DNA of 49,293 nt from Thermodesulfovibrionia bacterium (GTDB lineage Bacteria > Nitrospirota > Thermodesulfovibrionia > UBA6902). Location: positions 1 to 49,293 of the forward strand of contig CAMYND010000046.1 of assembly GCA_947259645.1 (NCBI GenBank), written 5' to 3'. Below are positions 1 to 47,729 of this stretch, one piece after another (position 1 is the stretch's first letter; every line of letters starts with the position of its first letter). The translations under genes were made by a program, and so were the position numbers. The notes under the pieces are model-generated. The model was not told the origin of the DNA. It ran no database searches and saw only the letters and a list, made by a program, of their open reading frames with translations.

Positions 1-216
1 ATCACACCGCAGAACAATGAAGTTAAAGTCCTGAATGAAGTTGGTTCCCGGATATGGGAACTGCTGGACGGGAGCAGGGACATGAGAGCAGTCTCTTCTG
101 TTATTTCCAATGAGTTTGATGTTTCTGAGGACCAGGCGATGGAAGACACCAAGGAATTTATCAATGAATTGTCCAACAGACAGATGGTCCTTCTTCATAA
201 CAGTCAGAAGGAGTAG
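1..216 (+). CDS. PqqD-family peptide-binding protein (5' end cut off)
   Basis: The window opens inside a reading frame that gives 71 residues before a TAG at 214-216; the start lies outside the window. The visible part has the pattern of the PqqD/RRE family: a 'LNEVGSRIWELLDG' stretch at residues 12-25, then a helical 'V...I..EFDV' segment and a C-terminal helix with 'FINELSNRQMV' followed by a short tail. In this family the protein is a small winged-helix carrier that binds the leader of a ribosomal peptide and presents it to a radical SAM enzyme. The gene 42 bases downstream is exactly such an enzyme and a candidate precursor follows, which supports the role. Family assignment is firm; the exact partner is inferred from gene order. 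Confidence 0.8.
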   Translation: MTPQNNEVKVLNEVGSRIWELLDGSRDMRAVSSVISNEFDVSEDQAMEDTKEFINELSNRQMVLLHNSQKE

Positions 217-257
217 TTAAATACTGAAAGCTGACAGTTTATAGCTTATTTACAGAA

Positions 258-1268
258 ATGGACGACTATAACCGTATCGTTAAAAAAACCATGGAGAAGA
301 ACATTCCCTTCATGGTGCACTGGGAGCTTACGTACCGGTGCAATATGACCTGTGGCCACTGCTATTGCGCTCATGACAATACACGGCAGGAGCTGACCTT
401 TGAGGAAATTAAATCTGCCATTGATGCTTTAGCAGACATGCAGGCCCTGTATCTGACATTCAGCGGCGGAGAAATTCTCGCGCGTACAGATTTTTTCCCT
501 ATTGCACGATACGCGCGTGAGAGGGGCTTTGCACTGAGGCTTCTTACGAATGGAACCTATATCTCAGAAGAAATTGCCGACAGAATCAAAGAGCTCCATC
601 CCCTTTCTGTTGAGATGAGTCTCTATGCTGCTCAGGCAGAACTGCACGATATAATCACCGGCACAAACGGTTCTTTTGAAAAGACAGTCCGGTCCTTTGA
701 ACTTCTTCGAGAACGAGGAGTCGGAACTAAAGTCAAGAGCCTTCTTATGAAGCAGAATGCGGACCAGCTCGGCGAATTACAAAAACTCTCCGCTGAACTG
801 GAAGCGGATTTTGTCTATGACATGACGGTTTTTCCAAAGGATGATGGACAGACCCGGCCCCTGCAATACCGGCTTGACGAGCAGGGCATGGCTGACGTAT
901 TCAGGGGAGACCACAGCGCTGTTTCTTTCGAGCCCCTTGAGTCAGTGAATGAAGATACATTTATGTGCAGCGCAGGATTGAACAATCTCTTAATATCACC
1001 CTACGGGGATATCTCACCCTGCGTTGGTTTAAAGGAAAGTGCAGGCAATGTGCGGGAGAAGTCCTTTGATGAAATCTTCCAATCCCCTGTTTTCCAGAAA
1101 GTCAGGGAAACAGGCTTTTCTGAACTTAGAGCCTGCCGGAGTTGCGAATTAGCATCATATTGCCGGCGCTGTCCGGGACTGGCAGCAGCTGAAGATGGTA
1201 ATTTTCTGGGAGCTTCCAGTGCAGCATGCAAACTTGCAGGTGCACTAAAAAATGTCTCAACCATGTAG
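258..1268 (+). CDS. radical SAM/SPASM peptide maturase
   Basis: A 336-residue protein with the radical SAM cluster motif CxxxCxxC at C28, C32 and C35 (in 'CNMTCGHCYC'), a 'FSGGE' SAM-binding motif near residue 70, and a C-terminal SPASM region with many cysteines ('CSAG', 'SPCVG', 'CRSC', 'YCRRCPG') that should hold two auxiliary iron-sulfur clusters. This is the layout of PqqE/MftC-like enzymes that modify peptides after translation. It sits between a PqqD-like gene and a small Cys-containing peptide gene, so the likely substrate is that peptide. The chemistry (thioether, carbon-carbon link, or other) cannot be read from sequence. The ATG at 258 puts the Cys motif at the usual distance from the N terminus; the ribosome site before it is weak. 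Confidence 0.88.
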   Translation: MDDYNRIVKKTMEKNIPFMVHWELTYRCNMTCGHCYCAHDNTRQELTFEEIKSAIDALADMQALYLTFSGGEILARTDFFPIARYARERGFALRLLTNGTYISEEIADRIKELHPLSVEMSLYAAQAELHDIITGTNGSFEKTVRSFELLRERGVGTKVKSLLMKQNADQLGELQKLSAELEADFVYDMTVFPKDDGQTRPLQYRLDEQGMADVFRGDHSAVSFEPLESVNEDTFMCSAGLNNLLISPYGDISPCVGLKESAGNVREKSFDEIFQSPVFQKVRETGFSELRACRSCELASYCRRCPGLAAAEDGNFLGASSAACKLAGALKNVSTM

Positions 1269-1291
1269 GGACAAGGCGCTGCCTTGTCCTT
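1267..1291 (+). terminator. terminator-like hairpin between maturase and precursor
   Basis: Directly after the maturase stop codon lies a perfect 9-bp inverted repeat, GGACAAGGC at 1269-1277 and GCCTTGTCC at 1281-1289, with a 3-base loop and a possible extension by one wobble and one A-T pair. It is followed by TTAATAATAAA, not a run of T, so it may act as an attenuator or an RNA-stabilising hairpin. It could set different expression for the maturase and the precursor gene. It could equally be one copy of a dispersed short palindromic repeat; only this copy is seen here. Confidence 0.4.
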
Positions 1292-1320
1292 AATAATAAA
1301 TTAAATGCTGGAGCAATAAC

Positions 1321-1479
1321 ATGAAAAAGAACAACAGAGAGAAAAAAAAGAAGGCATACGAGAGACCGCGGATCGTGTACGAAAAGAAGATTGAGGTACT
1401 GTCAGTTGTCTGTAACTCTGCACGAAGCGGTTTCAGTAACTGTATGAAAGCAGTTCCCTGCTTGACACTTCTGGCTTAG
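1321..1479 (+). CDS. candidate RiPP precursor peptide, 52 residues
   Basis: A small gene starting at ATG 1321 with a clear ribosome site (GGAG at 1310-1313, 7 bases before the start) and ending with TAG at 1477-1479. The product has a very basic N terminus (Lys/Arg/Asn-rich, residues 2-11), then 'AYERPRIVYEKKIEVL' (residues 12-27), a Y-x-x-P-x-I-x-x-E-x-x-I-E pattern like the leader segment of many radical-SAM-modified peptides, and a small-residue core 'SVVCNSARSG' continuing to the end with Cys at 31, 41 and 47. It lies just after the PqqD and radical SAM/SPASM genes and before a peptidase fusion and an ABC exporter, which fits a precursor of a modified, exported peptide. No Gly-Gly cleavage site is seen. 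Precursor identity is inferred from position and composition; the mature product is unknown. Confidence 0.7.
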   Translation: MKKNNREKKKKAYERPRIVYEKKIEVLSVVCNSARSGFSNCMKAVPCLTLLA

Positions 1480-1491
1480 TTCATATTATTC

Positions 1492-3174
1492 ATGCAGAAA
1501 ATGAGGGACCAAAAAGAAAAGGCCGGTGATTTTTGCGTTGATTTTGTAAAGGGGAATATCCGCTCCGGAAATGAAATGTCTTTCCCCGTAGCAACCGACA
1601 GCATGCTGCCCCTTATCAAAGCTACAGATCGGGTTGTTGTTAACACCTGCGGCGCATCAGATGTAAAGCTGGGGGATATTGTTCTGTTTGAGAGAGATTC
1701 ATCTCTCATTGTCCACCGCGTATTGGAAAGGAAAATAGAAGATAAAAAAATTATTCTGGTACCGAAGGCAGACCGGGTATGTGAGAAAGAAAAACCTTTT
1801 TCTGAAGAGCAATTCCTGGGAAAGGTCGTCAAGATTCATAAGGAATCATTTACTCTCCATTTAGAGAGGTGGCATGGAATCGCAATCAACAGGAGTTTTT
1901 ATTTTTATTCGCTTCTTAAAATGAGGACCTTTGCACTCTTATCCGGATTTAAGGAAAGATCACAGCGTCAATTGAGAAAAGAAGATATTCTGATACGCCT
2001 TTGCTCGGTTACTACCATTAATGAGGCGGCACGCGAGGACATACGGAAAATTCTCAATCAGGATGTTGACTGGAATTATTTCATGAGGAGGGTTCAGGGC
2101 GAGGACACTGCTTCCTTAATATATAAGGTGTTTTCACGCATTAACAGTTCAGAATCGCTGGTACCACTTCATGTAATGAATCATTTGAAGGACTTCTATT
2201 ATGCTGTGATGGCGCAAAATATCTCTCTGACTCAATCTATCGAAAAGATCTTCGCTGCTTTTCAAAAAGAAAACATCACGGCTTTAGTCTTCAAAGGGTT
2301 CATGCTGGCCGGGTCAATATATAAAGATATAGGATTGCGTCCAATGGGTGATGTAGACATTCTGCTCAGGAGGGAGGAGGTTTCAAAGGCAGACGGACTC
2401 TTGCGCAGGAACGGCTTTTATCCTGAATTTGAATTGAAAGATATTGGAAATCTGTCATCCGGGCAGTATCGCAACAGTATTGTATACAGGACCGAAGATT
2501 CTGTTCCCGTTGCAGTACATATCCACTGGCATATTGTTAATTTTACCCCGTTCCATAACAATGTTTTACGGAATATAAATATGGATAACGTATGGAATGA
2601 GTCTGTTCCCTTTCAGATTGGACTGCTTGAGATGAGAACATTTTCTCTCCATCACCAGATCATTTATCTCTCCATGCATGCCCTGAATCACTCGTTCCAT
2701 CCCCTGATCAGGTTATCTGATATACATGAGCTCTTGTGTGCGGAGAAAGATCAAATAGACTGGGAGAGGCTGGTCAAAGAGGCAGATGCTTTTAACCTTT
2801 CCAAGTGCGTATATTATGTGTTTTATCTTCTGTCCCGTATATTTCATACGGACATTCCGGCATTTATTCTCCACAGATTAAAACCCCGAAAAATAGGTCT
2901 GATTGAGCGGACATTTCTTTCTTCTGTTCTGTCGGGGAACCCTATTCTGACAGGTGAATGGTTGATCTGTTATGGCATGAATGATTCTTTTAGGGACAAG
3001 GTTACGTTTTTATGGACATTGCTGTTTCCTCCCCAAAAGGAGCTTGCCATTATCCGGAAGAGAGACGATGGTCGTGCAGGCATGTCTGATTATATGAAGA
3101 GGCTGACTGCGGGGTTAGGCTGTGCTCTTAAGGTAATGTTCAATTTTACCAGGCAGGCGTCGTTTAAATTGTGA
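1492..3174 (+). CDS. S26-type signal peptidase domain fused to nucleotidyltransferase
   Basis: 560 residues in two parts. Residues about 20-120 look like an S24/S26 signal peptidase: 'TDSMLP' with the expected serine nucleophile, 'LGDIVLF', 'IVHRVLE' with a His where the ER/SipW type uses His rather than Lys, and 'VPKADR' in place of the usual K-G-D box. No membrane anchor is evident. Residues about 180-520 match the uncharacterised NTP_transf_5 family: 'ALVFKGFMLAGSIY' then 'GLRPMGDVDILLR' with the D-x-D metal motif near residue 285. Such nucleotidyltransferases and S26 peptidases are each known beside RiPP genes; here they are one chain. Likely roles are leader removal and nucleotidylation of a peptide or of another substrate, but neither is shown. 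The start is uncertain (ATG 1492 or 1501, both with weak ribosome sites). The stop overlaps the GTG of the ABC gene. Confidence 0.75.
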   Translation: MQKMRDQKEKAGDFCVDFVKGNIRSGNEMSFPVATDSMLPLIKATDRVVVNTCGASDVKLGDIVLFERDSSLIVHRVLERKIEDKKIILVPKADRVCEKEKPFSEEQFLGKVVKIHKESFTLHLERWHGIAINRSFYFYSLLKMRTFALLSGFKERSQRQLRKEDILIRLCSVTTINEAAREDIRKILNQDVDWNYFMRRVQGEDTASLIYKVFSRINSSESLVPLHVMNHLKDFYYAVMAQNISLTQSIEKIFAAFQKENITALVFKGFMLAGSIYKDIGLRPMGDVDILLRREEVSKADGLLRRNGFYPEFELKDIGNLSSGQYRNSIVYRTEDSVPVAVHIHWHIVNFTPFHNNVLRNINMDNVWNESVPFQIGLLEMRTFSLHHQIIYLSMHALNHSFHPLIRLSDIHELLCAEKDQIDWERLVKEADAFNLSKCVYYVFYLLSRIFHTDIPAFILHRLKPRKIGLIERTFLSSVLSGNPILTGEWLICYGMNDSFRDKVTFLWTLLFPPQKELAIIRKRDDGRAGMSDYMKRLTAGLGCALKVMFNFTRQASFKL

Positions 3175-3974
3175 ACATAGCCATTCAAACAACTAATCTT
3201 GGCAAAAACTTTTATCAGAAGGCTTTTTGGCGTAATAAAAAAGTCATTAAGGCAGTTGATGGCGTAGACCTTCAGGTCAGGAGAGGTGAACTGTTCGGGC
3301 TTGTAGGGCCGAACCAGGCAGGAAAAACAACGCTGATTAAAATGCTCTGTACTCTGATTCTTCCAAATGTAGGGAATGCTTTTGTGAATGGTTTCGACGT
3401 TGCTGCTGAACAGGACAAGGTTAAGCAATCGATAGGTCTGGTCTCCGGCGAGGACAGATCTTTCTATTGGAGGCTTACCGGAAGGCAGAACTTAGAATTT
3501 TTTGCAGCCCTTTACGGTCTCTCCCGTCATGAAGCGGGAGATAAAATCAGAGAGCTTCTCGTTTTATTGGAAATAGATAAAGAGGCTGATATCAGTTTTC
3601 AGAAATACTCCAGCGGTATAAAGCAGAGAATGAGTATTGCACGGAGCATGCTCAGTGACCCTCAGATTCTTTTCATGGATGAAGCAATGAAAAGCCTTGA
3701 TCCACACGCGGCATATAAGATGAGAAAGTTTCTCAGGGAAGAGATGGTAGAAAAGAGAAAAAAGACAGTTATCCTGACTACACACCAGATGGCTGAAGCA
3801 GAAGACATTTGTGACCGCATAGCGGTTATGCAGGATGGAAGAATAAAGGCGGTTGGAACGATGGAGGAATTGGGACAGCAGGCCGGCATATCAGGGGCAG
3901 GACTGGAGGAATTATTCCAGAGGATAACCGGCGGGGACAGCGCGGACAGAGAGGAGACAACTGTCTGTGCGTAG
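3171..3974 (+). CDS. ABC transporter ATP-binding protein, ABC-2 type
   Basis: A 267-residue ATPase of the DrrA/NatA type. It has Walker A 'GPNQAGKTT' (Gln where Gly is usual, but the G-x4-G-K-T pattern is intact), a signature 'YSSGIKQRMSIARSM' as often seen in this subfamily, Walker B 'ILFMDEAMKSLDP' (Ala in place of the common Pro after the catalytic Glu) and an H-loop 'LTTHQMAEAE'. It should drive export with the permease encoded next; the two genes overlap by 8 bases. It starts with GTG at 3171, overlapping the stop of the peptidase-nucleotidyltransferase gene, so the three are translationally coupled. The context suggests export of the modified peptide, or of a lipid/glycan from the neighbouring polysaccharide locus. 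Confidence 0.88.
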   Translation: MNIAIQTTNLGKNFYQKAFWRNKKVIKAVDGVDLQVRRGELFGLVGPNQAGKTTLIKMLCTLILPNVGNAFVNGFDVAAEQDKVKQSIGLVSGEDRSFYWRLTGRQNLEFFAALYGLSRHEAGDKIRELLVLLEIDKEADISFQKYSSGIKQRMSIARSMLSDPQILFMDEAMKSLDPHAAYKMRKFLREEMVEKRKKTVILTTHQMAEAEDICDRIAVMQDGRIKAVGTMEELGQQAGISGAGLEELFQRITGGDSADREETTVCA

Positions 3975-4770
3975 ACTGTTCGCGTTTGTGAAGCGTGATT
4001 TCCTGAGCGATGTCAGCTACCGTTTTGCCTTTTTCTTTAACCTTGCCAGTATTCTCTTTTCTGTGCTGACCTTTTTCTTTATCGCCAAACTTTTCAGTCA
4101 CAGCGTAAATCCCTATTTGAATGAATATGGAGGACGCTACTTTCCTTTTGTCTTAATCGGCATTGCCTTTTCCGGGTATCTGACTGCAGGATTGAGAGGC
4201 TTTTCCGATGCCCTGCGAAATGAGCAGCTGATAGGAACACTGGAGATGATTCTTCTCACACCCACGCGGCTTTCCACTATGCTTATCAGCCAGACTCTCT
4301 GGAAATTTCTTCAGGCAACTTTAAATATTTTTCTTTATTTAATAATTGGAGTTCTTTTTCTGCAGGTGAATATTGAAATGCGAGGCTTGTTCGCTGCTTT
4401 GATCATTCTTGTCCTTACTGTGACAAGTTCCGGCAGTTTAGGGATCATTGCTGCAGCATTTATCATGATTTTCAAGAAGGGGGACCCCATAACCTGGCTG
4501 TTTATTACAGCCTCCAGCCTTCTGGGGGGTGTCTTCTATCCAGTAGCTGTTTTGCCGGAATTTCTCCAGAAACTTGCTGTTCTGCTGCCGATTACGCATT
4601 CACTGAAAGGGCTGAGAGGGGCTTTGTTAGCTGGACGGTCTTTCGATGATTTATCATTACATATCGGGATGTTGGCCTTATTTTCCATAATTTTCATTCC
4701 TGTCGGCATAGTCACGTTTGCCTATGCTGTGAAAAGGGCAAAAAGAGAAGGTACGCTGGTTTACTACTAA
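3967..4770 (+). CDS. ABC-2 type transporter permease
   Basis: A 267-residue membrane protein with about six hydrophobic segments, typical of ABC-2 permeases (for example 'FAFFFNLASILFSVLTFFFIA', here near residues 20-40, and a late 'FLQKLAVLLPITHSLKGLRG' segment that is the conserved loop of the family). It starts at GTG 3967 inside the end of the ATPase gene, so the two form a coupled pair. It is the last gene of the peptide-modification group; a 113-base gap with promoter-like sequence separates it from the polysaccharide genes. The substrate is not determined. Confidence 0.85.
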   Translation: MRRLFAFVKRDFLSDVSYRFAFFFNLASILFSVLTFFFIAKLFSHSVNPYLNEYGGRYFPFVLIGIAFSGYLTAGLRGFSDALRNEQLIGTLEMILLTPTRLSTMLISQTLWKFLQATLNIFLYLIIGVLFLQVNIEMRGLFAALIILVLTVTSSGSLGIIAAAFIMIFKKGDPITWLFITASSLLGGVFYPVAVLPEFLQKLAVLLPITHSLKGLRGALLAGRSFDDLSLHIGMLALFSIIFIPVGIVTFAYAVKRAKREGTLVYY

Positions 4771-4883: not shown

Positions 4884-5669
4884 ATGTTTATGAGTAAAAG
4901 TGAGGGGAACATTTATACCATCAGGAAGAACATAATATCCGGTCTACTGCTCGTGTTTTATATAGTTTTGACAGGATGCGCATCAATGGACAACCACGAT
5001 CATATCCCTCACTATACAGAATCGAATATTCCAGTCTCGGAGGGAATCAGCGAAAATCAGACAGACTCGCTCAAAGAGAAAGAGCAGGGATACAGGATCC
5101 AGGAAGGAGATATGCTTCTTATTTCTGTGTGGCGTGAGAGTGATCTCAGAGAGGAAGTGACCGTCCGCCCTGATGGAAGAGTATCGTTTCCACTTGCCGG
5201 CGATGTTCCGGCCAGAGGAAAATCCTTTCTTGAGCTAAATATGGAGATAACAAAAAGGCTGAGGGAATATCTTAAAGACCCCGTAGTCTCCATTTCCCTT
5301 ATGCAGGAGGCAGGCAGAAAAGTGATCGTTCTCGGAGAAGTCAGATATCCCGGAGTCTACTATGTGAAGGGAAAAAACACCATGAGGGAAGCAATAGCCC
5401 TCGCAAAAGGCTTTAGCGAACATGCTGTTCAGTCTAGTGTCCTCCATATAAGGGGAGATTATAATAATCCCCAGGCTACAAGGATGGATTTAACGTATGC
5501 AAGGAAGGAAACCGAAACTAAACAGAACCAGAATATTGTCTTACAGAGTGAGGACATAGTCTATGTCCCCAAAAAATATATTGCTGATGTGAATTATATT
5601 GCACGAATGATTGTTGAACCAATTGCACGAAGTGTCTGGACGGTTAGGGGGGTACAGCTCATTGAATAG
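4884..5669 (+). CDS. Wza-like polysaccharide export lipoprotein
   Basis: 261 residues. The N terminus has a basic start, a hydrophobic stretch and a lipobox 'LTGC' near residue 32, so it is a lipoprotein of the outer membrane. 'YRIQEGDMLLISVWRE' opens the Poly_export domain ('VTVRPDGRVSFPLAGDV', 'YLKDPVVSI'), and an SLBB domain follows ('VIVLGEVRYPGVYYVKG'). Members form the channel by which capsule or exopolysaccharide crosses the outer membrane. It is shorter than E. coli Wza and may need another protein for the outer-membrane segment. ATG 4884 is preferred because a GAG at 4873-4875 lies at good distance; a second in-frame ATG is at 4890. It heads the polysaccharide genes and precedes the Wzc-like gene. 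Confidence 0.9.
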   Translation: MFMSKSEGNIYTIRKNIISGLLLVFYIVLTGCASMDNHDHIPHYTESNIPVSEGISENQTDSLKEKEQGYRIQEGDMLLISVWRESDLREEVTVRPDGRVSFPLAGDVPARGKSFLELNMEITKRLREYLKDPVVSISLMQEAGRKVIVLGEVRYPGVYYVKGKNTMREAIALAKGFSEHAVQSSVLHIRGDYNNPQATRMDLTYARKETETKQNQNIVLQSEDIVYVPKKYIADVNYIARMIVEPIARSVWTVRGVQLIE

Positions 5670-5739
5670 CTGGACCTGATGAATCGAATGTATCAGATGT
5701 ATGAACAGTTAAGTTAAAGCGAGAGCGAAGGTTAATTTT

Positions 5740-7740
5740 ATGCCTCATTATGAATTTAACACAAGAGACTACGTAAGGATTTTATATAAGAGAAAGGGCC
5801 TGATCATTCTGGCTGTTCTGATTGGGGTAGTATGCGGCTATTTTTTCTACCCTGAACCTGCACCGGTTTTTCAGTCAGCTGCAACGGTCAAAATAGAAGA
5901 GCGTAAGACAATCGCCGGCCTTCTTTCAGAATGGATTGTCTTTAATCCGGGAGATTTAATGGCATCACAAACAAAGATCATTAAAGGATTTCCCATTATC
6001 AAAAAGGTGGCTCTTCGCCTGGGCATGATCGATGAAAATTCTCATGCTGTAGATATTCAGAAAGCTGTCAGCAGCTTGCAGGAACAGATAAACACCGAGA
6101 GGATTGGACAAACGAATATCATCAAGATTACCGGCTCTGCGAGCAATCCGGGGGATGCGAAGAACCTGGCTTACGCTGTCAGCAATACATATGTTGAAGA
6201 GAATTTGCTGGAAAAGACCAAGCAGTCACGACGTACACGGCAGTTTATCGAGGAACAGTTATCAATTCTTCAGGGCAGGTTAAAGGATGCGGAAGACAGA
6301 TTGAAAGTCTTTCAAGAAGAGACTGGTGAAGTAGCTGTTGTAAAAATTGATTTTGGGAATATCGAATCACTTCAGAATAGAATAACAGAGTTTCAACTGA
6401 AATTAATCGCCCTTGAACAGAGGTACACTAGCAAACATCCTAATTTAAGACGCCTTAAAGAGCAGATTGAAAACCTGGAATCCCAACTCGAAGACGAGAA
6501 GGAGATGACAGTTCCCCCGAAAGGGCACTCCTCTGGACAGAAGCTGGATCAGGCACGGTTGTCCCGGGAGGTTGAAATCAATAAAAAGCTTTATATGATG
6601 TTTAAGGAAAAGCTTGAAGAGGCGCGAATAAATGAGGCGCAGAAACTGGGAGATGCCTCAATTGTTGATCCGGCTGTTCTCCCCGATTCTCCTGTAAGCA
6701 CACAGGGCAACATTAATATTCTTCTCGGTGCAATTATAGGGTTGCTGCTCGGTATCGGACTTGCTTTCATAATTGAATCCGTGGATACATCAATCGGGAC
6801 CATAGAAGATATAGAAAGGGTATTGAAATTACCTGTCCTGGGGATTGTATCCTCTGCCAAGAAAGATCTTAATAAAAAGCAGTTGAAAGTAATTCGGAAA
6901 ACCTCAGGTGTCAAAAAAAGAGAGGCCCGGGAAATGTATGTACGATTGATTACCCACTATGAGCCCAAGTCTCTCATAGCGGAATCCTGTCGAAATATTC
7001 GGACCAACCTTAAACTTAACCCGTCAAAAAAAACCATTCTCGTTACCAGTTCCGGGACACAGGAAGGAAAGACGACTATACTGATAAATCTGGGCCTGGC
7101 CGTTGCCCAGACAGGAGCGAAAACACTCCTCGTTTCCTCTGACTTACGGAGGCCGGCTATTGCCAAAACATTCGGCGTGAACAGAGAACCGGGGTTGACG
7201 GACTTTATAGCCGGAACAGTTCCCTTGCGGGATGCGTTTAGAAATATATCAGATCTGATATTAAGTGATAGAAAACTCGAAGAAATCACAAAATCCCCCG
7301 GCCTGGAAAATCTCTGGATTCTTCCCTGCGGCAAACTGCCTCATAATCCTGCCGAAATCCTTCAATCCAGAGAGTGGGACTACCTGGTTAAGGGACTGAA
7401 ACAGGAATTTGATTTTATTTTCTTTGATACACCTCCTGTACTGGCGGTGACCGATGCCAGCATTATAGCCTCAGGAGTAGACAGTGTTGTCATGTGTTAT
7501 GAGATGGGCAGGATTTCCAGAGAGGCCCTTCTGCGGGCCAAGACCCAGATTGAGTCCGTTGGCACCCATATATCCGGAATCATATTAAATCAGATCAAAT
7601 CTCAGGCTCAGGCAATGGAGCCTTACCCCTATTACACAAGTTATCGATACAGGTACTATCGTGAAAGCGAAGCAGACGGGAATGGATTTAAAGCGAATTT
7701 GATCAAGAGGTTCAAAGACAAGGCAAATCTTGACGTGTGA
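5740..7740 (+). CDS. Wzc-like polysaccharide co-polymerase / BY-type tyrosine kinase
   Basis: 666 residues. A Wzz domain has its first membrane helix near residues 19-37, a long periplasmic coiled-coil region ('RQFIEEQLSILQGRLKDAE' onward) follows, and the second helix lies near residues 324-343. The cytoplasmic part is a bacterial tyrosine kinase: Walker A 'SSGTQEGKTT' near 437, Walker A' 'VSSDLRRP' near 465, Walker B 'FIFFDTPPVL' near 560. A Tyr-rich tail (residues about 628-640, with 'YPYYTSYRYRYY') is the usual autophosphorylation cluster. The protein controls chain length and export together with Wza and Wzy. No Wzb-like phosphatase is seen in the window. A GAAGG ribosome site precedes the ATG. 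Confidence 0.92.
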   Translation: MPHYEFNTRDYVRILYKRKGLIILAVLIGVVCGYFFYPEPAPVFQSAATVKIEERKTIAGLLSEWIVFNPGDLMASQTKIIKGFPIIKKVALRLGMIDENSHAVDIQKAVSSLQEQINTERIGQTNIIKITGSASNPGDAKNLAYAVSNTYVEENLLEKTKQSRRTRQFIEEQLSILQGRLKDAEDRLKVFQEETGEVAVVKIDFGNIESLQNRITEFQLKLIALEQRYTSKHPNLRRLKEQIENLESQLEDEKEMTVPPKGHSSGQKLDQARLSREVEINKKLYMMFKEKLEEARINEAQKLGDASIVDPAVLPDSPVSTQGNINILLGAIIGLLLGIGLAFIIESVDTSIGTIEDIERVLKLPVLGIVSSAKKDLNKKQLKVIRKTSGVKKREAREMYVRLITHYEPKSLIAESCRNIRTNLKLNPSKKTILVTSSGTQEGKTTILINLGLAVAQTGAKTLLVSSDLRRPAIAKTFGVNREPGLTDFIAGTVPLRDAFRNISDLILSDRKLEEITKSPGLENLWILPCGKLPHNPAEILQSREWDYLVKGLKQEFDFIFFDTPPVLAVTDASIIASGVDSVVMCYEMGRISREALLRAKTQIESVGTHISGIILNQIKSQAQAMEPYPYYTSYRYRYYRESEADGNGFKANLIKRFKDKANLDV

Positions 7741-7802
7741 AGCAGGTAAGGCTAATCAAGCTACGCCGATAATTTAACGTTACTCCACTGAAGGAACACA
7801 TT

Positions 7803-9212
7803 TTGTCCTATACTGAAGGAAATATATCTCCACGCAGCAGTAATCCAGGTTTTGCTACAATAATTTCATTAGTGCTGTTTATCGGCGTTGCCTTTCTATT
7901 GAAGTTTCAGTCGCCCCCGGCATTTCCTGTAATCATTCTGTTTGCACTTGTTGTATTGGTTATAGCCTTTATAAGCACCGAGACAGCTCTCATTATCCTG
8001 ATCTTTTCAATGTTGCTCTCTCCTGAATTGCCAATAGGAGGAGTTCCCGGCAGGGAAGTCGTAATAAGGCTGGATGATATATTTTTACTGGTAATATTTT
8101 TTGGATGGATGGCCAGAATGGCAATAAATAAAGAATTAGGATTACTGAGAGTAACGCCGATAAACAGGCCTATACTTATCTATGTATTTATCTGCATGCT
8201 GTCCTCCGGGATAGGCGCATTAGAAGGAACTACAAATCCGAAACACAGCATGTTCTATATCATTAAATATATCGAGTACTTTATCGTTTTTTTTATGGTG
8301 ACCAACAATATAAAGGACTACAGGCAGGTTAAAACCTTTGTATGGTTAATGTTTCTGACATGCATGATTGTAAGTGCATACGGTTTGTATTCCTCATTCT
8401 CATTGGGTCTTCGTGCTACCGCCCCTTTTGAAGGCCCGGCAGGTGAATCAAATACCCTTGCCGGATACTTAATTATAATGATGGGGATGATGATGGGAAT
8501 TATCCTGTATGCCCGCTCTCCAGGAGTGCGTTTTCTTTTAACAGGCTGCCTGATATTCATATTCCTCCCGTTTATATATACACTCTCCCGCAGCGGATGG
8601 TTGGGTTTTATCGGTATGTATGGTGCGTTCCTGCTCTTTTCAAAGCGGAGTAAAGGAATTTTACTGATTCTTCTCCTGCTCTCTATAGTAATGTTCCCTG
8701 CGTTGATGCCTCAAGTTGCACATGATCGCATTCAAAACACCTTTAGCGGCCATACAAGTATTCATGTTTTGGGGAAAGATATAGTTCTGGATGAATCAAC
8801 ACTTGCACGGTTCACGTCCTTCAAACGGTCTTTAGACCTCTGGGCTGAAAGACCGCTTCTGGGGCGTGGAGTACCCGGCGGCGGAGTCGTTTCTGACGTT
8901 CAGTATAGCCGGATATTAAGAGAAGTAGGCCTTGCAGGTTTTTTAGCATTCCTGTGGATCATCTGTGCTCTTTTTAAATCAGGGTTAAAAAGTTATACAT
9001 GTCCTGACATTGACGATTTTGAGCGTGGTTTGAGCCTTGGGTTTCTTTGCGCCCTGTCAGGTATTTTAGTAATGGGGTGCGCCGCGGAAGTTTTCATTAT
9101 TATCCGTATTATGGAACCATTCTGGTTTTTAGCGGCTATAGTGGTGGTATTGCCGGAGCTGAGAAAAAGAGACTACTTTACAGCAGAACCTGTCCCCTTG
9201 CACGGGATTTGA
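7803..9212 (+). CDS. O-antigen ligase / Wzy-like polymerase family membrane protein
   Basis: 469 residues with about 11-12 hydrophobic segments and the long periplasmic loop of the Wzy_C/O-antigen ligase family. The conserved 'PFIYTLSRSGWLGFIG' near residue 260 and 'LWAERPLLGRGVPGGG' near residue 350 are family hallmarks. Its place beside Wza, Wzc and Wzx suggests it is the polymerase that joins repeat units in the periplasm, rather than a lipid A ligase, but the two cannot be told apart by sequence. The start is TTG 7803, backed by AAGGA at 7791-7795, seven bases upstream; no better ATG is in frame. Confidence 0.85.
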   Translation: MSYTEGNISPRSSNPGFATIISLVLFIGVAFLLKFQSPPAFPVIILFALVVLVIAFISTETALIILIFSMLLSPELPIGGVPGREVVIRLDDIFLLVIFFGWMARMAINKELGLLRVTPINRPILIYVFICMLSSGIGALEGTTNPKHSMFYIIKYIEYFIVFFMVTNNIKDYRQVKTFVWLMFLTCMIVSAYGLYSSFSLGLRATAPFEGPAGESNTLAGYLIIMMGMMMGIILYARSPGVRFLLTGCLIFIFLPFIYTLSRSGWLGFIGMYGAFLLFSKRSKGILLILLLLSIVMFPALMPQVAHDRIQNTFSGHTSIHVLGKDIVLDESTLARFTSFKRSLDLWAERPLLGRGVPGGGVVSDVQYSRILREVGLAGFLAFLWIICALFKSGLKSYTCPDIDDFERGLSLGFLCALSGILVMGCAAEVFIIIRIMEPFWFLAAIVVVLPELRKRDYFTAEPVPLHGI

Positions 9213-13914: not shown

Positions 13915-15360
13915 GTGAGACACGAGAGAATATTATTAGTAAATCCGCCCTATCCCGGCAGAAGGGTCAAATCTGTTTTTTGCGCCGGATTAGGATACAT
14001 AGCCGAAATATTGGATCATTCGGGATTTGATTACGATGTGCTGGACATGAGCCTCGGTTACACATATCAGGACTTAAAAAGAAAAATAAATAAATTTTCC
14101 CCTCATTCTATTGGTGTGTCAGTAATGACGTATATGTATAAAAATACCTATGATTTAGTTAAAAGTATCAAAGAAGATTATCCTGACCTTGATATCATAG
14201 CAGGAGGACCGCATATTTCATTGTTTCGTGAGAAGGTGCTGCTGGACTGCCCCTCTATTGATTATGGGGTTGTGATGGAAGGTGAGCGAACCATAGTGAA
14301 TCTTTGCAGAGGAGATTCCACGGATACGATAAAAGGGTTGATCTTTCGAAGAGGGGGATCGGTTGTTTATAACGGAGATCCTCTGTTTATCAAGGCGCTA
14401 GACACAATACCCTTTCCTAGATACAAAAAATTTGAATTGAGCAGGTCGATTGATAAAGATATTAATGCGCTACCGGTTGTATCTTCGAGAGGTTGTCCGT
14501 TTGATTGTATTTACTGTCCGGTTAAATGCTCCATAGGAAAGTCTTTCAGGACAAGAAGCCCCGGGAATATCATTGAAGAATTAACATACTGGTATGAAAG
14601 AGGGTTCAAGCGGTTCAGTTTTGCTGATGATAATTTTACCTTGATAAAAGACCGGGTATACACATTGTGCGATTTAATACAAAAGTCAAACCTGAAAGAT
14701 CTGAAGTTAAGCTGTGACAATGGAATCAGGGCCGACAAGGTTAACAGAGATTTATTAAAGATCATGAAGGAAGCTGGGTTTTACAGAATAGCATTCGGGG
14801 TTGAAGCAGGAAATAACAAGGTTTTGAAGAGCTTAAAGAAAAAGGAAAGCATAGAGACCATCAAGAGCAGAATTCAGGAGTCATGCGATTTAGGCTATGA
14901 TGTCGATTTATTTTTTCTCGCAGGCTCCCCTCACGAAACATGGCAGGATCTGCAGGATTCATTCAAAATAGTCTCTGATTATCCGATTGGAACGGCATAC
15001 TTTTACAACATCATTCCGTTCCCCCATACTGAACTGTTTGACTGGGTAGAAAAAAACGGCAGGTTCCTGAAAAGTCCGGAGGAATATCTGAATGAATATC
15101 CGATCCTGGATGTTGATCCTCTGTTTGAAACTCCTGATATGCCTTATAAAGAAAGGAAAAAGGCGCTTAAGCATGCCTTTAAGGTAATGAGAAAAACAAT
15201 GCGCAGAAGCTGGGCAAAAAGACTGATGAGGTACGGTATTTTCGGTGAATTTCTTGCATACATTTATACCAGTAAATTTATTCAGGATACAGTGCTGCGC
15301 AATAAAGTCCTGAGAAAAGTTATTTATAAAACAGCAAACATCTGTTTTTCTCATTCATAA
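13915..15360 (+). CDS. B12-binding-domain radical SAM protein
   Basis: 481 residues. The N-terminal 140 residues look like the cobalamin-binding fold of BchE-like enzymes ('LLVNPPYPGR' start, 'IIAGGPHISLF', 'GVVMEGERT') but lack the D-x-H-x-x-G motif, as many in this class do. The radical SAM motif CxxxCxxC is in 'RGCPFDCIYC' near residues 193-200, followed by 'FSFADDNFTL' and 'AFGVEAGNNKVL', typical of the family. The C-terminal region is basic. Such enzymes perform methylations or rearrangements on unreactive carbons; several occur in polysaccharide loci without a known reaction. It starts at GTG 13915, 4 bases after the upstream stop, and lies 6 bases before the GT2 gene. Confidence 0.85.
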   Translation: MRHERILLVNPPYPGRRVKSVFCAGLGYIAEILDHSGFDYDVLDMSLGYTYQDLKRKINKFSPHSIGVSVMTYMYKNTYDLVKSIKEDYPDLDIIAGGPHISLFREKVLLDCPSIDYGVVMEGERTIVNLCRGDSTDTIKGLIFRRGGSVVYNGDPLFIKALDTIPFPRYKKFELSRSIDKDINALPVVSSRGCPFDCIYCPVKCSIGKSFRTRSPGNIIEELTYWYERGFKRFSFADDNFTLIKDRVYTLCDLIQKSNLKDLKLSCDNGIRADKVNRDLLKIMKEAGFYRIAFGVEAGNNKVLKSLKKKESIETIKSRIQESCDLGYDVDLFFLAGSPHETWQDLQDSFKIVSDYPIGTAYFYNIIPFPHTELFDWVEKNGRFLKSPEEYLNEYPILDVDPLFETPDMPYKERKKALKHAFKVMRKTMRRSWAKRLMRYGIFGEFLAYIYTSKFIQDTVLRNKVLRKVIYKTANICFSHS

Positions 15361-19907: not shown

Positions 19908-21059
19908 ATGTCGTGGAGAAATCTAAAAAGAATTCAAGGAAAGGTGCTCAGGCAGCCCCGTTACGCTGCATATGTTGCGTCAAAAAGGGCAGCAGCATAT
20001 TACTCCTATTATGCCCGGAGCGGCAAAGCAAGTTACCCTGAGGCATTAACACTTTTTCTGACACATCGCTGCAACCTGCGATGCAGGATGTGCGGGCAGT
20101 GGGGAGACAGCGGGGTAACGAAGGATAAAACCAGTCAGACCATACCACCGGATATGCCGATAGTAGAGCTGAAAAAGCTTATTGATGATGCTGCTTTTTT
20201 TAAACCAAACATCACCCTCTTTGGCGGCGAACCGTTGTTGCATCGTCACGCAATGGAGCTGATAGGTTATATAAAAAAGAGGGGCCTCCATTGTTTGATG
20301 ATAACAAACGGTTCCATGCTGAGCAAAAGAGCCGATGATCTCGTTGTTAAGGGGTTGGATGAGTTGAATGTTTCCATTGACGGCGGCAGGGAACTGCACG
20401 ACAGGATACGGGGCGTGCCCGGTCTGTTCGGGAAGATAATCAGCGGCCTTAAAGAGGTTAAAGAGGCAAAAAAAAGGAAAAGGGTAACAACGCCGTTGAT
20501 CAACCTGCAATGCACAATTAACACATATAATTACAATCATCTGGAGCAGATGCTTGAAGTAGCTGAAGAAGCCGGGGCAGACTCTCTTACGTTTCATAAC
20601 CTTATTTTTGTCAGTAAGGATATGCTGGATAAGCAGCAGGAATTTGACGAATTACTCAACTGTTCTTCCGAAAACTGGAAAGGGTTCAATTTCGAGCCCT
20701 CCATTGATCCAGATGTGTTACATGAGAAAATGCAGGAAATTATGACTGGGCCTCATAAATTTGCCATCGATTTCTATCCTCTATTTTCTCACTCGGAGTT
20801 GACTGATTATTATCTGAATTCATTTGCCCTGTCCGAAAAAAAGCACAAGCGCTGTATAAGTCCGTGGATGACAGCCTATGTATTTCCCGACGGAGAGCTT
20901 AGGCCCTGCCTGAATTATGACTATTCCTTTGGAAATGTGAAAACCAGCACCTTATCCCAACTGTGGAACAGTGAACAGGCTGTTCATTTCCGGAGAACCC
21001 TCAAGGAGAACAGAGCATTTCCCTTATGCGGGAGATGCACTGAATTGTATCGATATTAG
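19908..21059 (+). CDS. radical SAM/SPASM protein in the polysaccharide locus
   Basis: 383 residues. CxxxCxxC lies at C55, C59 and C62 ('CNLRCRMCGQWG'), 'TLFGGEPLLH' is the SAM motif, and a C-terminal SPASM region ends the protein ('CISPWMTAYVFPDGELRPC', then 'LCGRCTELY'), giving fewer cysteines than the maturase at 258-1268. A basic N-terminal 50 residues precede the domain. Radical SAM/SPASM proteins of this sort occur often in O-antigen and capsule loci and their substrate is generally unknown. It lies between the aminotransferase and a GT4 gene. No small peptide gene was found beside it, so a sugar or lipid substrate is as likely as a peptide. Confidence 0.84.
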   Translation: MSWRNLKRIQGKVLRQPRYAAYVASKRAAAYYSYYARSGKASYPEALTLFLTHRCNLRCRMCGQWGDSGVTKDKTSQTIPPDMPIVELKKLIDDAAFFKPNITLFGGEPLLHRHAMELIGYIKKRGLHCLMITNGSMLSKRADDLVVKGLDELNVSIDGGRELHDRIRGVPGLFGKIISGLKEVKEAKKRKRVTTPLINLQCTINTYNYNHLEQMLEVAEEAGADSLTFHNLIFVSKDMLDKQQEFDELLNCSSENWKGFNFEPSIDPDVLHEKMQEIMTGPHKFAIDFYPLFSHSELTDYYLNSFALSEKKHKRCISPWMTAYVFPDGELRPCLNYDYSFGNVKTSTLSQLWNSEQAVHFRRTLKENRAFPLCGRCTELYRY

Positions 21060-25279: not shown

Positions 25280-27262
25280 ATGAATGATAGTGGAAAGAAA
25301 AGAGTCGTCATTGAAAACGTGAGACCGCAGATAGAGGGCGGCCGGTTTCCTATAAAGCGGGCTGTTGGCGAGAAAGTAGTGGTTACTGCTGATCTGTTCT
25401 CAGACGGACATGACACTGTTTCCGCGAGGCTGCTTTTTAAGGGGCCTCATGATGCAGACTGGAAAGAATCACCTTTGACATATATTGAAAATGATCTTTG
25501 GTCAGCTGAATTCAGAGTAATGGATTTAGGGACATATCAATACACCGTTGAAGGCTGGGTTGATCATTTCAGGACATGGCAGAAGGATTTAAGAAAGAAA
25601 TTTGATGCTGGACAGAATGTAAAGGTGGAACTGCAGATTGGTCTGGGCTATATTGAAAAGGCGATTATAAAGGCGGGCAAGGATGACAAAAATAAACTGG
25701 GAACTATTATTGAAGAAATAAAGGGGAATGGTCCGGAGCTCGCGGTGCTCACAGCGGTTGATAAGGACCTTGGGGAATTAATTGAAAAATATAGAGATCC
25801 GTCATCTGCCAGTCGTTATCAAAAAGAACTGCTCGTTGTAGCTGACCAGAAGAAAGCGGTCTTCAGCTCCTGGTACGAACGGTTTCCACGCTCCTGTGCT
25901 TCGGAACCGGGGAAACACGGAACATTTAAAGACTGTGAAGCGCTTCTTCCGGAAATTGAGCGAATGGGTTTTGATGTGCTCTACCTCCCGCCGATCCATC
26001 CCATAGGGAGAACAAAGCGTAAGGGGAAAAACAACAATCCGCTCTGCGAAGAAGGCGATGTGGGAAGCCCCTGGGCTATTGGCGCCGAAGAAGGCGGGCA
26101 TAAAGCTGTGCTTCCTGCACTCGGTACTCTGGATGATTTCAGGGATCTGGTCGAGCGGGCCAGAGACTATGGAATAGACATCGCAATGGACATTGCCTTT
26201 CAGTGCTCTCCGGACCATCCTTATGTAAAAGAACATCCGGAATGGTTCACCTGGCGGCCTGACGGGACTGTACAGTTTGCTGAAAATCCACCAAAGAAGT
26301 ATGAAGATATAATTCCCATAAACTTTGAGAGCGACCAGTGGCAAGATCTCTGGGAAGAATTAAAGAGTGTGTTTCTCTTCTGGATTGAAAAGGGAGTGCG
26401 CATTTTCAGGATAGACAATCCGCACACAAAGTCCTTTGCTTTCTGGGAGTGGGTCATCAATGAAATAAAGCAGGACTATCCTGAAACGATCTTTCTCTCA
26501 GAGGCCTTTACCCGGCCAAAAGTTATGTACAGACTTGCAAAGCTGGGGTTTAGCCAGTCCTATACATATTTCACCTGGAGAAATACAAAGCAAGAGTTTA
26601 TGGAATATATGAAGGAACTTGTCAGGACTGATGTCCGGGAATTCCTGCGGCCCAACTTCTGGACGAACACTCCTGATATCCTCCCTGAACATCTCCAGTA
26701 TGGCGGGAGGCCGGCGTACATGATGCGTCTTGTCCTGGCAGCAACACTCTCTTCAAATTATGGTATATACGGCCCTGCCTTTGAGCTCTTTGTACAGGAC
26801 GCAATAGAGGGGAAAGAGGAATATCTCTATTCTGAAAAGTATGAGCTCAAACACTGGGACTGGGATAAAGAGGGGAACCTTAAGGATTTTATTGCGAGGA
26901 TCAATAACATACGAAAAGAAAACCCGGCACTTCAGGATACGTGGAATGTCCAGTTCTATGAAGTAGATAATGACTATCTTATGTGTTACGGAAAGACCAG
27001 TGATGACTTATCCAACATTATCATTGTCGCGGTGAATCTTGATCCCTATCATTCACAGGGAGGATGGGTGAATATTCCTATCGCAGAACTGGGAGTTGAT
27101 CCGCACCAGCCGTATCTGGTGCATGACCTGCTGAGTGATGACAAATTTATCTGGCACGGCGAAAAGAATTTTATCCAACTCGATCCCGCTGTTGTTCCGG
27201 CCCAGATATTCAGGGTCAGGAAGAGGTTAAAGAGAGAAATGGACTTTGACTATTTTCTGTAA
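25280..27262 (+). CDS. glgE: alpha-1,4-glucan:maltose-1-phosphate maltosyltransferase
   Basis: 660 residues, the usual GlgE length. The N-terminal domain begins 'VVIENVRPQIEGGRFPIKR' and has 'FSDGHDTVSARLLFK', typical of the GlgE N/S domain. The GH13 barrel has 'VLYLPPIHPIGRTKRKGKNN' near residue 234, the nucleophile Asp in 'GVRIFRIDNPHTKSF' near residue 378, the acid/base Glu in 'TIFLSEAFTRPK' near residue 409 and the third acid in 'TNTPDIL'. It extends alpha-glucan with maltose from maltose 1-phosphate. Partner genes treS-maltokinase and glgB lie 17 kb downstream past the Mrp and ndvB genes, although these genes are commonly adjacent in bacteria. The ATG follows a weak AAGAGA ribosome site and a good promoter. 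Confidence 0.93.
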   Translation: MNDSGKKRVVIENVRPQIEGGRFPIKRAVGEKVVVTADLFSDGHDTVSARLLFKGPHDADWKESPLTYIENDLWSAEFRVMDLGTYQYTVEGWVDHFRTWQKDLRKKFDAGQNVKVELQIGLGYIEKAIIKAGKDDKNKLGTIIEEIKGNGPELAVLTAVDKDLGELIEKYRDPSSASRYQKELLVVADQKKAVFSSWYERFPRSCASEPGKHGTFKDCEALLPEIERMGFDVLYLPPIHPIGRTKRKGKNNNPLCEEGDVGSPWAIGAEEGGHKAVLPALGTLDDFRDLVERARDYGIDIAMDIAFQCSPDHPYVKEHPEWFTWRPDGTVQFAENPPKKYEDIIPINFESDQWQDLWEELKSVFLFWIEKGVRIFRIDNPHTKSFAFWEWVINEIKQDYPETIFLSEAFTRPKVMYRLAKLGFSQSYTYFTWRNTKQEFMEYMKELVRTDVREFLRPNFWTNTPDILPEHLQYGGRPAYMMRLVLAATLSSNYGIYGPAFELFVQDAIEGKEEYLYSEKYELKHWDWDKEGNLKDFIARINNIRKENPALQDTWNVQFYEVDNDYLMCYGKTSDDLSNIIIVAVNLDPYHSQGGWVNIPIAELGVDPHQPYLVHDLLSDDKFIWHGEKNFIQLDPAVVPAQIFRVRKRLKREMDFDYFL

Positions 27263-34409: not shown

Positions 34410-35285
34410 TTATCTCACTGCAATTCTCACCTCGGCTGAGTGTTCCTGACGGTCATCAACAAGAGGAATAACATTATCAGGCTGCTTAACGCCATCTACT
34501 GTCACACTCGTTTCTCCGGTTTCACCGCGGGATTGCAGTACGGTGATATGATAGACGGTTTCCCTATACCGGTAATGAACTTTGAAGGACTCCCAATCTT
34601 CATGCAAGCATGGATCGAAATGCAGTTTGTCAACTTCAAGCCTTAGTCCCAGGAGGGATTCAATGATAAGCCGGTACATCCAGCCGGCCGATCCTGTGTA
34701 CCACGTCCATCCACCGCGGCCGGTGTGCGGTGAGACCGCGTAGACGTCGGCTGCAACTACGTACGGTTCTACTTTGTAGATTTCGATTTCCTCTGGAGAT
34801 CCCCCATGGTTTAGCGGATTGATTATTGAAAGCAGTTCCCACGCGCGACGGCTGTCGCCTAATTTTGCAAACGCCATCACTGTCCAGATTGCAGCATGCG
34901 TGTACTGTCCGCCATTTTCCCGGACTCCGGGGACGTATCCCTTTATATACCCTGGATTTAAATCGGATTTATCAAACGGCGGGTCCAGGAGCTGGATCAG
35001 CCTGTGATCACGTCGAACAAGTCGTTTATCCAACTCCGCCATAGCCATAGCTGTTCGTATTTCATCTCCGGCGCCTGAGAGAACAGACCAGCTTTGCGCA
35101 ACAGCATCAATCTGACACTCAAGATTACCTGCCGAACCAAGCGGCGTGCCATCATCGAAGAAAGCACGGAGATACCATTTGCCGTCCCAGCCATGCTGAT
35201 AGTCGTGCGATCTCAGTGAAGCGCATGAGTACGTCATAAAGGAAGAACCCCAGCCAGACACTTTCGCCTTTGCCGTGCTCACCAA
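34410..35285 (-). CDS. cyclic beta-1,2-glucan synthase, C-terminal piece in a second frame
   Basis: The frame gives the C-terminal end of the large gene that follows upstream on the minus strand. Homology-like sequence begins near 35200 ('HGWDGKWYLRAFFDDGTPLG') and continues with 'NPGYIKGYVPGVRENGGQYTHAA', 'WTWYTGSAGWMYRLIIESLLGLR' split over residues about 215-240, and a beta-rich tail. These are the final parts of the GH94 glycan-phosphorylase-like domain of NdvB proteins, so it belongs to the gene at 35152-43044 and is not an independent gene. The join lies near 35190-35230, where about 25-30 conserved residues are also missing. The sequence between 35230 and 35285 in this frame is shadow. 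Confidence 0.8.
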   Translation of the reverse strand: MVSTAKAKVSGWGSSFMTYSCASLRSHDYQHGWDGKWYLRAFFDDGTPLGSAGNLECQIDAVAQSWSVLSGAGDEIRTAMAMAELDKRLVRRDHRLIQLLDPPFDKSDLNPGYIKGYVPGVRENGGQYTHAAIWTVMAFAKLGDSRRAWELLSIINPLNHGGSPEEIEIYKVEPYVVAADVYAVSPHTGRGGWTWYTGSAGWMYRLIIESLLGLRLEVDKLHFDPCLHEDWESFKVHYRYRETVYHITVLQSRGETGETSVTVDGVKQPDNVIPLVDDRQEHSAEVRIAVR

Positions 35286-43044: not shown

Positions 43045-43367
43045 GTTTAAGGCCTCCTTTTGAGATGCCACGCCTAAATAAATAATCAGCAATCATGGCG
43101 GTGTAAGCTTATCCCTCCATGGTAGGCGGCATTCATGCTGCAGTATATCATTATATCATGCATAGGAGTGACGGAGAGCTGCAATTAACAATCAAGGAAT
43201 GGTGAATTTCTTTATATTTCGTGAATCATCATTCGGCAATCGCTATTCGTTATTCATTTGTGAGAATGTTCTATGATATACTGTTTTCTGAAGAAGAGCG
43301 TTACTTAACACTTCATTATTTTCAATGGAGAACGCGGAACTGAAGGAATTCAAATTAAGGGGATATC
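43045..43367. other. divergent intergenic region between ndvB and a lipoprotein gene
   Basis: About 320 bases with no gene. It must hold the starts of both divergent genes. On the minus strand a TATAAT is read at 43155-43150, with no good -35 box at 17 bases. On the plus strand the sequence is AT-rich, with short tandem ATTCG/TTATTC-like runs at about 43225-43255. It also marks the right edge of the GC-rich block. Confidence 0.6.
43253..43282 (+). promoter_or_regulatory. possible promoter of the glycine-zipper lipoprotein gene
   Basis: TATACT at 43277-43282 is a good -10 box; TTCATT at 43253-43258 lies 18 bases upstream as a weak -35 box. It is 85 bases before the lipoprotein start. The match is moderate. 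Confidence 0.28.
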
Positions 43368-47600: not shown

Positions 47601-47729
47601 AAAGCGGTCTATGAGCTGGGATATGAAATGAACAATCGGCCGGACTGGTTAGTCATTCCTATCAAAGGCATACAGGGTATACTTGGAACGCCCGGGCAGG
47701 ATGGCGGAATGAAAGGACTATCAGAGTGA
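44523..47729 (+). CDS. treS: trehalose synthase-maltokinase fusion (TreS-Mak), lacking its N-terminal end in this frame
   Basis: Homologous sequence runs unbroken from 44523 to the TGA at 47727-47729; the first in-frame ATG is 44877, already inside the catalytic domain, so the gene is not intact as given. The TreS part has '[17 protein letters not shown]' with the nucleophile Asp, '[13 protein letters not shown]' with the acid/base Glu, '[13 protein letters not shown]' and '[12 protein letters not shown]'. The C-terminal 570 residues are a maltokinase: '[16 protein letters not shown]' is its N-terminal cap, and '[27 protein letters not shown]' is the kinase catalytic and metal site (residues split by positions about 47250-47330). 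The fusion would interconvert trehalose and maltose, then phosphorylate maltose for GlgE. The end overlaps glgB. Confidence 0.88.

Follow-up and report, generated by a model that had tools for sequence, protein, structure and literature searches.

A Radical SAM Peptide Cassette, Probably of the LPP/Paeninodin-Like Group, Beside an Exopolysaccharide Operon in Nitrospirota

The Locus and Its Genes

The stretch of DNA analysed here, called the window, is an entire contig of 49,293 bases, taken from base 1 onward, of a 3.41 Mb Nitrospirota assembly, and the system in question is a set of six genes at positions 1–4770. As a whole, the locus is best explained as a cassette for a ribosomally synthesized and post-translationally modified peptide (RiPP), and it probably represents a radical S-adenosylmethionine (SAM) branch of the group of systems that includes linear polyphosphorylated peptides (LPPs) and paeninodin. 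Open reading frame (ORF) calls place all six genes on the plus strand, just as an earlier sequence-only reading of this DNA had described them. The domain families which that reading had assigned from motifs were confirmed by Pfam and NCBIfam: PqqD, radical SAM with SPASM, a fusion of an S24/S26 peptidase with a nucleotidyltransferase (NTase), and an ATP-binding cassette (ABC) transporter ATPase with its permease (Table 1). The PqqD gene is the sole incomplete one of the six, its N-terminus being missing because window and contig start with the same base; no contigs overlapping this cut end were found. An Rfam search for RNAs gave no match in the window, and promoter-like sites in it are not above chance (7 found vs. 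9 expected); one such site, at 1462–1489, scores 11/12.

Table 1. Features of the locus in window coordinates, with the evidence for each assignment
Feature	Position	Strand	Evidence
PqqD-like RiPP recognition element (RRE), 5' end lost at contig end	1..216	+	PF05402 (E = 9e-14); alignment A8
Radical SAM/SPASM peptide maturase	258..1268	+	PF04055 (3e-25), PF13186 (2e-12)
Precursor peptide, 52 aa, MKKNNREKKKKAYERPRIVYEKKIEVLSVVCNSARSGFSNCMKAVPCLTLLA	1321..1479	+	Homologues; precursor hidden Markov model; GGAG about 9 bases 5' of ATG
Fusion, N-terminal half: S24/S26 SipW-type leader peptidase	1492..1971	+	TIGR02228 (6e-10), PF00717 (2.5e-05)
Fusion, C-terminal half: PF14907 nucleotidyltransferase, PsmN/LppN-like decorating enzyme	1972..3174	+	PF14907 (6e-46)
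ABC transporter ATPase, DrrA/NodI type	3171..3974	+	TIGR01188 (1e-71), PF00005
ABC-2 permease, partner of the ABC ATPase	3967..4770	+	PF01061 (4e-17)
Start of neighbouring exopolysaccharide operon (export protein, Wzc-like kinase, O-antigen-ligase-like)	4884..9212	+	Recurrent neighbour, not counted as cassette part

Recurrence of the Cassette Across Phyla

The search for homologues used the fusion protein in 246 Nitrospirota genomes and then the radical SAM maturase in 396; further radical SAM searches covered the 84,980 species of a named collection and 285 Omnitrophota genomes. The criterion for keeping a locus was a score of 240 bits or more for its radical SAM protein with the cassette profile, and duplicates were removed; because a single radical SAM pattern reached them, the set is a lower bound and is biased to the query. 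It comprises 128 distinct cassette loci in about 20 phyla, whose single host assignments can be wrong, since most are metagenome bins. The hosts include Chloroflexota, Kiritimatiellota, Thermodesulfobacteriota, Planctomycetota, Omnitrophota, Verrucomicrobiota, Cloacimonadota, Aminicenantes, Aerophobota, Acidobacteriota, Myxococcota, Nitrospinota, Gemmatimonadota, Elusimicrobiota, WOR-3, Chlorobiota, Armatimonadota, Bacillota, and one methanogen.

Among the 66 loci flanked by 4.5 kb or more on each side, an HprK-like kinase is present in 100%, PqqD in 92%, and the S26 peptidase in 79%; the NTase follows with 45%, the ABC ATPase with 35%, the ABC-2 permease with 18%, and exopolysaccharide genes within 8 kb with 32%. 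As a small control, five weaker radical SAM relatives (L173, L174, L176, L178, and L179) have none of the cassette partners nearby. The ABC-2 pair is a frequent yet optional part of the cassette. The peptidase is closely linked to PqqD and the radical SAM enzyme (36 of 40 Nitrospirota cassettes) and occurs without the latter in only two fetched loci, one of which has PqqD and HprK. The NTase half alone is not specific: a cassette-type radical SAM gene accompanies it in 4 of 35 Nitrospirota NTase loci, and PqqD or an HprK-like kinase in 21 of them. The full window set, together with HprK and adjoining exopolysaccharide genes, is found in three Omnitrophota loci (L300–L302) in the order HprK-PqqD-rSAM-peptide-S26, NTase, ABC, permease, and exopolysaccharide export protein and/or Wzc (rSAM, radical SAM).

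The optional character of the transporter bears on the limits of the cassette. It might comprise only PqqD, the maturase, the peptide, and the peptidase/NTase, with the ABC pair belonging to the exopolysaccharide operon, which lies downstream of it in the same direction; the pair is also absent from most Nitrospirota cassettes (permease in 3 of 40). We consider this division unlikely. The ABC ATPase gene and the fusion gene share 4 bases, and a homologous pair occurs on another contig of the same genome (C99) in the order peptide-PqqD-HprK-B2-NTase-ABC-permease, with no exopolysaccharide gene found on its 6.6 kb. L095 and 12 of 19 Omnitrophota cassettes have homologous pairs as well, and these often lie on the other strand from the exopolysaccharide genes. 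The window ATPase is 41–50% identical to those of L300, L301, and C99, and the permease is 42–46% identical to its counterparts there.

The Precursor Peptide and Its Family

The 52-aa peptide of the window contains a YxxP leader motif (Y13-E-R-P16), three cysteines (Cys31, Cys41, and Cys47), and a C-terminal Ala. It has no match in Pfam or NCBIfam, and when used alone as a query over the phylum it gave chance-level matches only (E > 0.03), two weak ones of which (G166 and G217) proved real by later gene context. The ORF is not a product of chance, because the peptide at the same position in an Omnitrophota locus (L261) is 54% identical over 46 aa, while the adjoining maturase is 42% identical; identity to the peptides of L301 and L302 is 52% and 48%. 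In the clade formed by the window peptide with those of L261 and L300–L302, all from Omnitrophota, P, K, IE, VC, and two more Cys are conserved.

A profile built from 17 precursors was run on 22,516 ORFs of at most 150 aa in all fetched loci. It gave 106 matches at E < 0.01, every one within 3.5 kb of a radical SAM gene and 0 elsewhere; in distinct loci, these amount to 98 precursor peptides in 92 of the 128. Homologues of the peptide are thus found beside homologous maturases and none away from them. Together with the co-occurrence of the parts, this precursor family supports the earlier suggestion of a make-modify-cut-export set for a ribosomal peptide, and we infer that all cassette parts act on one peptide.

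Members of the family share a Lys/Arg-rich start, a [YW]xxP leader, and a first Cys that usually occurs as CK. The distance from Tyr/Trp to the first Cys is 20 residues in 65 of 96 precursors, 21 in 15, and 18 in 11, the last being the value of the window clade, and three Cys are present in 71 of 96. The C-terminal residue is Ser in 81 and Thr in 7 (88 of 98 precursors), compared with 16% for Ser and Thr together in 7,173 small ORFs from the same loci, an excess for which no probability is claimed because the loci are related. The window peptide ends in ...CLTLLA, and its four clade mates end with Ser or Thr (LSS, RST, VLS, and LLS).

The Maturation Enzymes

The radical SAM protein carries a CX3CX2C motif at C28/C32/C35 and SPASM cysteines at positions 237, 255, 293, 296, 302, 305, and 324. 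The motif and these seven cysteines are invariant in alignments A1 and A5, which identifies the protein as a radical SAM/SPASM enzyme. It groups with the enzymes of L261, L300, L301, and L302 at a support of 99 in the Shimodaira–Hasegawa-like approximate likelihood ratio test, and shares with them the gene order PqqD-rSAM-peptide. Its identity within the clade is 42–46%, against 48–54% for the peptide with three of the members. As these four loci belong to Omnitrophota, the sequences make a transfer of the window-type cassette between phyla, or a wide old distribution of it, likely.

Profile comparison places SkfB and PqqE as the nearest solved structures, and for this reason thioethers formed from Cys appear to be the likeliest chemistry. 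A different product type was also considered, namely a peptide processed to a small redox cofactor, like pyrroloquinoline quinone (PQQ) or mycofactocin, which would not be exported. PqqD and a radical SAM enzyme form the PQQ pair, and the best NCBIfam match of the window enzyme is the mycofactocin maturase, though at 151 bits it lies far under the cut-off of 265. The precursor, with its three Cys, shows neither a Glu-Tyr nor a Val-Tyr core that is conserved, and ABC export genes, HprK, and NTase are not known to belong to the PQQ and mycofactocin pathways. A cofactor-like product is therefore very improbable.

In the peptidase half of the fusion enzyme, Ser37, His75, and Asp94 are invariant (alignment A2) and are the predicted catalytic residues, in the arrangement of SipW/Sec11-type peptidases. 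The structure model of the fusion (predicted local distance difference test score 88) shows two domains linked by a helix. In fold searches, the first predicted domain matches LexA, UmuD, SipA, and SpsB, the signal-peptidase fold, and the second matches MenT1, ANT(2''), LnuA, and FKRP, the nucleotidyltransferase fold; by sequence alone, the peptidase half found no match in the PDB. Since the predicted N-terminal helix (residues 2–24) is polar in sequence, the modelled enzyme is probably soluble. A first scan of the genome contigs with the fusion protein alone as a query had given no match. The fusion, which had been called unusual, is indeed carried by few loci but is not unique: it is present in seven (the window, L034, L200, L207, L215, L222, and L314) in four phyla, Nitrospirota, Omnitrophota, Nitrospinota, and Kiritimatiellota, once in reverse order. 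This recurrence supports a joint action of the S26 peptidase and the NTase.

The HprK-Like Kinase and Sites of Phosphorylation

The cassette includes an HprK-like kinase, whose gene would lie past the contig end in the window genome. It is located upstream of PqqD in L300–L302, L261, and L095, directly before it in the clade mates of the window. In the HprK-like kinases of the cassette, the His, Lys, and Asp that lasso kinases also have (PMC9266682) are invariant. Two other contigs of the same genome, C27 and C99, carry HprK genes, which were rejected as candidates for the kinase of the window since they belong to other cassettes.

Both of these cassettes are without a radical SAM gene. The one on C99 (L046, 1626–6639, minus strand) encodes a 49-aa peptide with a FIEPKL leader and one YEKP, PqqD, an HprK-like kinase, a lasso-type B2 protein, an NTase, and an ABC ATPase and permease 46–50% identical to the window pair. 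The one on C27 (L183, 455–4416) encodes a 35-aa peptide with YESP and no Cys, an HprK kinase, PqqD, a 380-aa gene product, a second HprK, and an S26 peptidase.

A link between loss of the C-terminal Ser and loss of the kinase was considered and is not supported in general, as HprK is present in seven of the eight loci that lack a terminal Ser/Thr; four of these seven are in Chloroflexota. Chloroflexota loci L221, L223, L225, and L227 have VKLxVK.xVLxxC leaders, no terminal Ser/Thr, and an HprK gene. For the window, C-terminal phosphorylation is not claimed, because its peptide has a terminal Ala and its visible genes do not include a kinase for the cassette. Ser33 in the core (C-N-S), a position occupied by S or T in all five clade members, is another possible phosphorylation site, by analogy with Ser3 of LPP.

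Comparison with Known Systems

The closest parallels are found in two described systems. In the LPP system, encoded by the lpp cluster of Paenibacillus alginolyticus (PMC13381572, Nat Commun 2026), the SipW-like peptidase LppS cuts the YxxP leader only with its RRE and requires S29/H68/D93, and LppK phosphorylates a core Ser, Ser3. In paeninodin-type lasso clusters, an HprK-like kinase phosphorylates the C-terminal Ser, which is conserved in precursors accompanied by the kinase, and PsmN, annotated as a nucleotidyltransferase, is required for the addition of hexose to the phosphorylated C-terminal Ser (PMC9266682). Both LPP and paeninodin clusters have also been found in capsule loci (PMC13381572).

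The window shares with LPP a discrete RRE, a YxxP leader, a SipW-like peptidase with Ser-His-Asp (TIGR02228; S37/H75/D94), a PF14907 NTP transferase, and a location in a polysaccharide locus, and the cassette family adds the HprK-like kinase. It differs in having a three-Cys core, in having a radical SAM/SPASM maturase, an enzyme that PMC13381572 does not name, and in its peptidase being fused to the NTase. The leader consensus YxxPxVLxHQxIxFETxxS is replaced by YERPRIVYEKKIEVLS, and the MsbA-like one-gene exporter by a DrrA-like ATPase with a separate ABC-2 permease. Phosphorylation occurs at Ser3 in LPP and is predicted at the C-terminus in relatives of the window cassette. The presence of the radical SAM gene argues against a linear phosphopeptide as the window product.

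With the paeninodin/pseudomycoidin lasso systems (PadeK/ThcoK/PsmK and PsmN; PMC9266682), the window has in common a PqqD-type B1 protein, a YxxP leader, and a PsmN-type NTase, and the cassette family an HprK-like kinase with a conserved C-terminal Ser in the precursors. Unlike lasso clusters, the window has a radical SAM enzyme and lacks the other two maturation proteins: neither an asparagine-synthetase-like macrolactam cyclase (all genes being otherwise assigned) nor a Transglut_core3 match indicating a B2 cysteine leader peptidase was found at 1–4770. Sactipeptide and ranthipeptide systems (SkfB and StsB) likewise employ SPASM-type maturases on Cys-containing precursors, but the cassette has in addition a separate PqqD, HprK, SipW-type peptidase, and NTase. 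A Cys-to-carbon thioether in the window product, suggested by the three-Cys precursors and the kinship with SkfB, is only a lead.

The SynChlorMet (SCM) systems of NCBIfam (TIGR04248–TIGR04251) also combine PqqD, HprK-like, and radical SAM/SPASM proteins, and the models nearest to the respective cassette proteins include ScmD, ScmC, and ScmE/ScmF. Membership in SCM is nonetheless a most unlikely option and was rejected: SCM has two radical SAM models, and all scores stay far below the equivalog cut-offs (32 vs. 100 for PqqD and 87.5 vs. 400 for the radical SAM protein), likewise for the relatives of the window. A radical SAM version of the gene set was not described in the open-licence papers found, with a description elsewhere possible, so the cassette is apparently undescribed.

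Variants with more than one radical SAM gene were also seen in Nitrospirota. Two-gene cassettes (L035, 4762–6012; L048, 11213–16151) have several tandem precursors with YxxP leaders and many Cys closely followed by Gly, possibly the precursor kind of SCM-like systems. A three-gene variant (L168 and L169) has the order PqqD-rSAM-rSAM-peptide-HprK-rSAM-NTase-S26. Family f27 has radical SAM triplets in about 25 more genomes, and this variant, of which two were read, is apparently conserved in a large Nitrospirota family. A type with multiple radical SAM genes is also carried by a cultured member, Desulfosediminicola flagellatus (L266).

The Exopolysaccharide Neighbourhood

The operon that begins at 4884 also encodes a flippase and glycosyltransferases. 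The position of the locus directly before it had suggested an action of the peptide or the enzyme on the cell surface, and the adjacency is not accidental: an exopolysaccharide export or Wzc gene lies within 8 kb in 9 of 40 Nitrospirota cassettes, whereas approximately 81 Poly_export genes in approximately 150 Mb of the same class give, by arithmetic, an expectation of about 1%.

This adjacency allows the idea that the NTase couples the phosphorylated peptide to exopolysaccharide and thereby gives a peptide–glycan product. PsmN is needed for a hexose on phospho-Ser (PMC9266682), the predicted NTase fold resembles FKRP as well, and LPP clusters too lie in capsule loci (PMC13381572). Such a surface conjugate is nevertheless improbable, since no exopolysaccharide gene was seen within 8 kb of 31 of the 40 Nitrospirota cassettes, a C-terminal Ser is missing from the window peptide, and adjacency by itself is no proof of chemistry. 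Its fullest form, in which the radical SAM enzyme cross-links the peptide and the PF14907 NTase glycosylates a terminal phospho-Ser, joining the peptide to the exopolysaccharide of the next operon, is a long shot. If true, it would mean a genetically encoded peptide–glycan of the cell coat that is widespread in uncultured phyla.

Proposed Pathway and Its Significance

The gene set, the domain identities, the conserved catalytic residues, the precursor family, the co-occurrence of parts, and the exopolysaccharide adjacency, all read from sequence, are best accommodated by the RiPP cassette proposed above. In the pathway that we suggest, PqqD, as the RRE, would bind the Y13-E-R-P16 leader of the 52-aa precursor, and the radical SAM/SPASM enzyme would act on the Cys-rich region, where cross-linking of Cys31, Cys41, and Cys47 through thioethers is the most likely modification. 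Leader cleavage near the first Cys would be the task of the SipW-type peptidase half (Ser37/His75/Asp94), and the tethered NTase half would attach a sugar or a nucleotide, which in relatives would presumably go onto the HprK-phosphorylated C-terminal Ser. Export would then fall to the two-gene ABC transporter, and the exported peptide probably works on the cell surface in concert with the exopolysaccharide of the adjoining operon. By analogy with characterised relatives, we expect RRE binding, leader cleavage, phosphorylation, and glycosylation; thioether chemistry, export of the window peptide, and a surface role are put forward with more reserve.

Several observations weigh against this pathway. 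No HprK-like kinase is present on the window contig, which ends inside PqqD, and the window peptide is alone among the 98 in ending with Ala. Val precedes Cys31, where most members have Gly or Ala, so the cut site in the window is unsure. Only a minority of the well-flanked loci have the ABC ATPase (35%) and the ABC-2 permease (18%). Thioethers are a guess that draws on the Cys content and on the kinship of the enzyme.

The cassette would join two RiPP worlds so far separate: radical SAM maturation of Cys-containing peptides and the kinase/NTase/SipW-peptidase group of LPPs and paeninodins. The range of the latter, so far mainly Bacillota, would grow to about 20 phyla, most of them uncultured, and the cassette offers many natural test cases for the roles of the HprK kinase and the PF14907 NTase in peptide clusters near capsule genes. 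The strict grammar of the precursor family makes the system testable, and the window member, in which the NTase is kept and the C-terminal Ser is absent, is itself such a test case.

Other Features of the Window

Two more radical SAM proteins, one B12-binding and one with SPASM, are encoded inside the exopolysaccharide operon at 13915–15360 and 19908–21059. On the minus strand, 35152–43092 encodes a protein of 2646 aa that combines two GH94 supersandwich domains with GH94 catalytic and glucoamylase domains and is of the cyclic beta-glucan synthase type. A GlgE maltosyltransferase at 25280–27262 and an alpha-amylase/maltokinase-cap fusion at 44877–47729 correspond to enzymes of the GlgE pathway.

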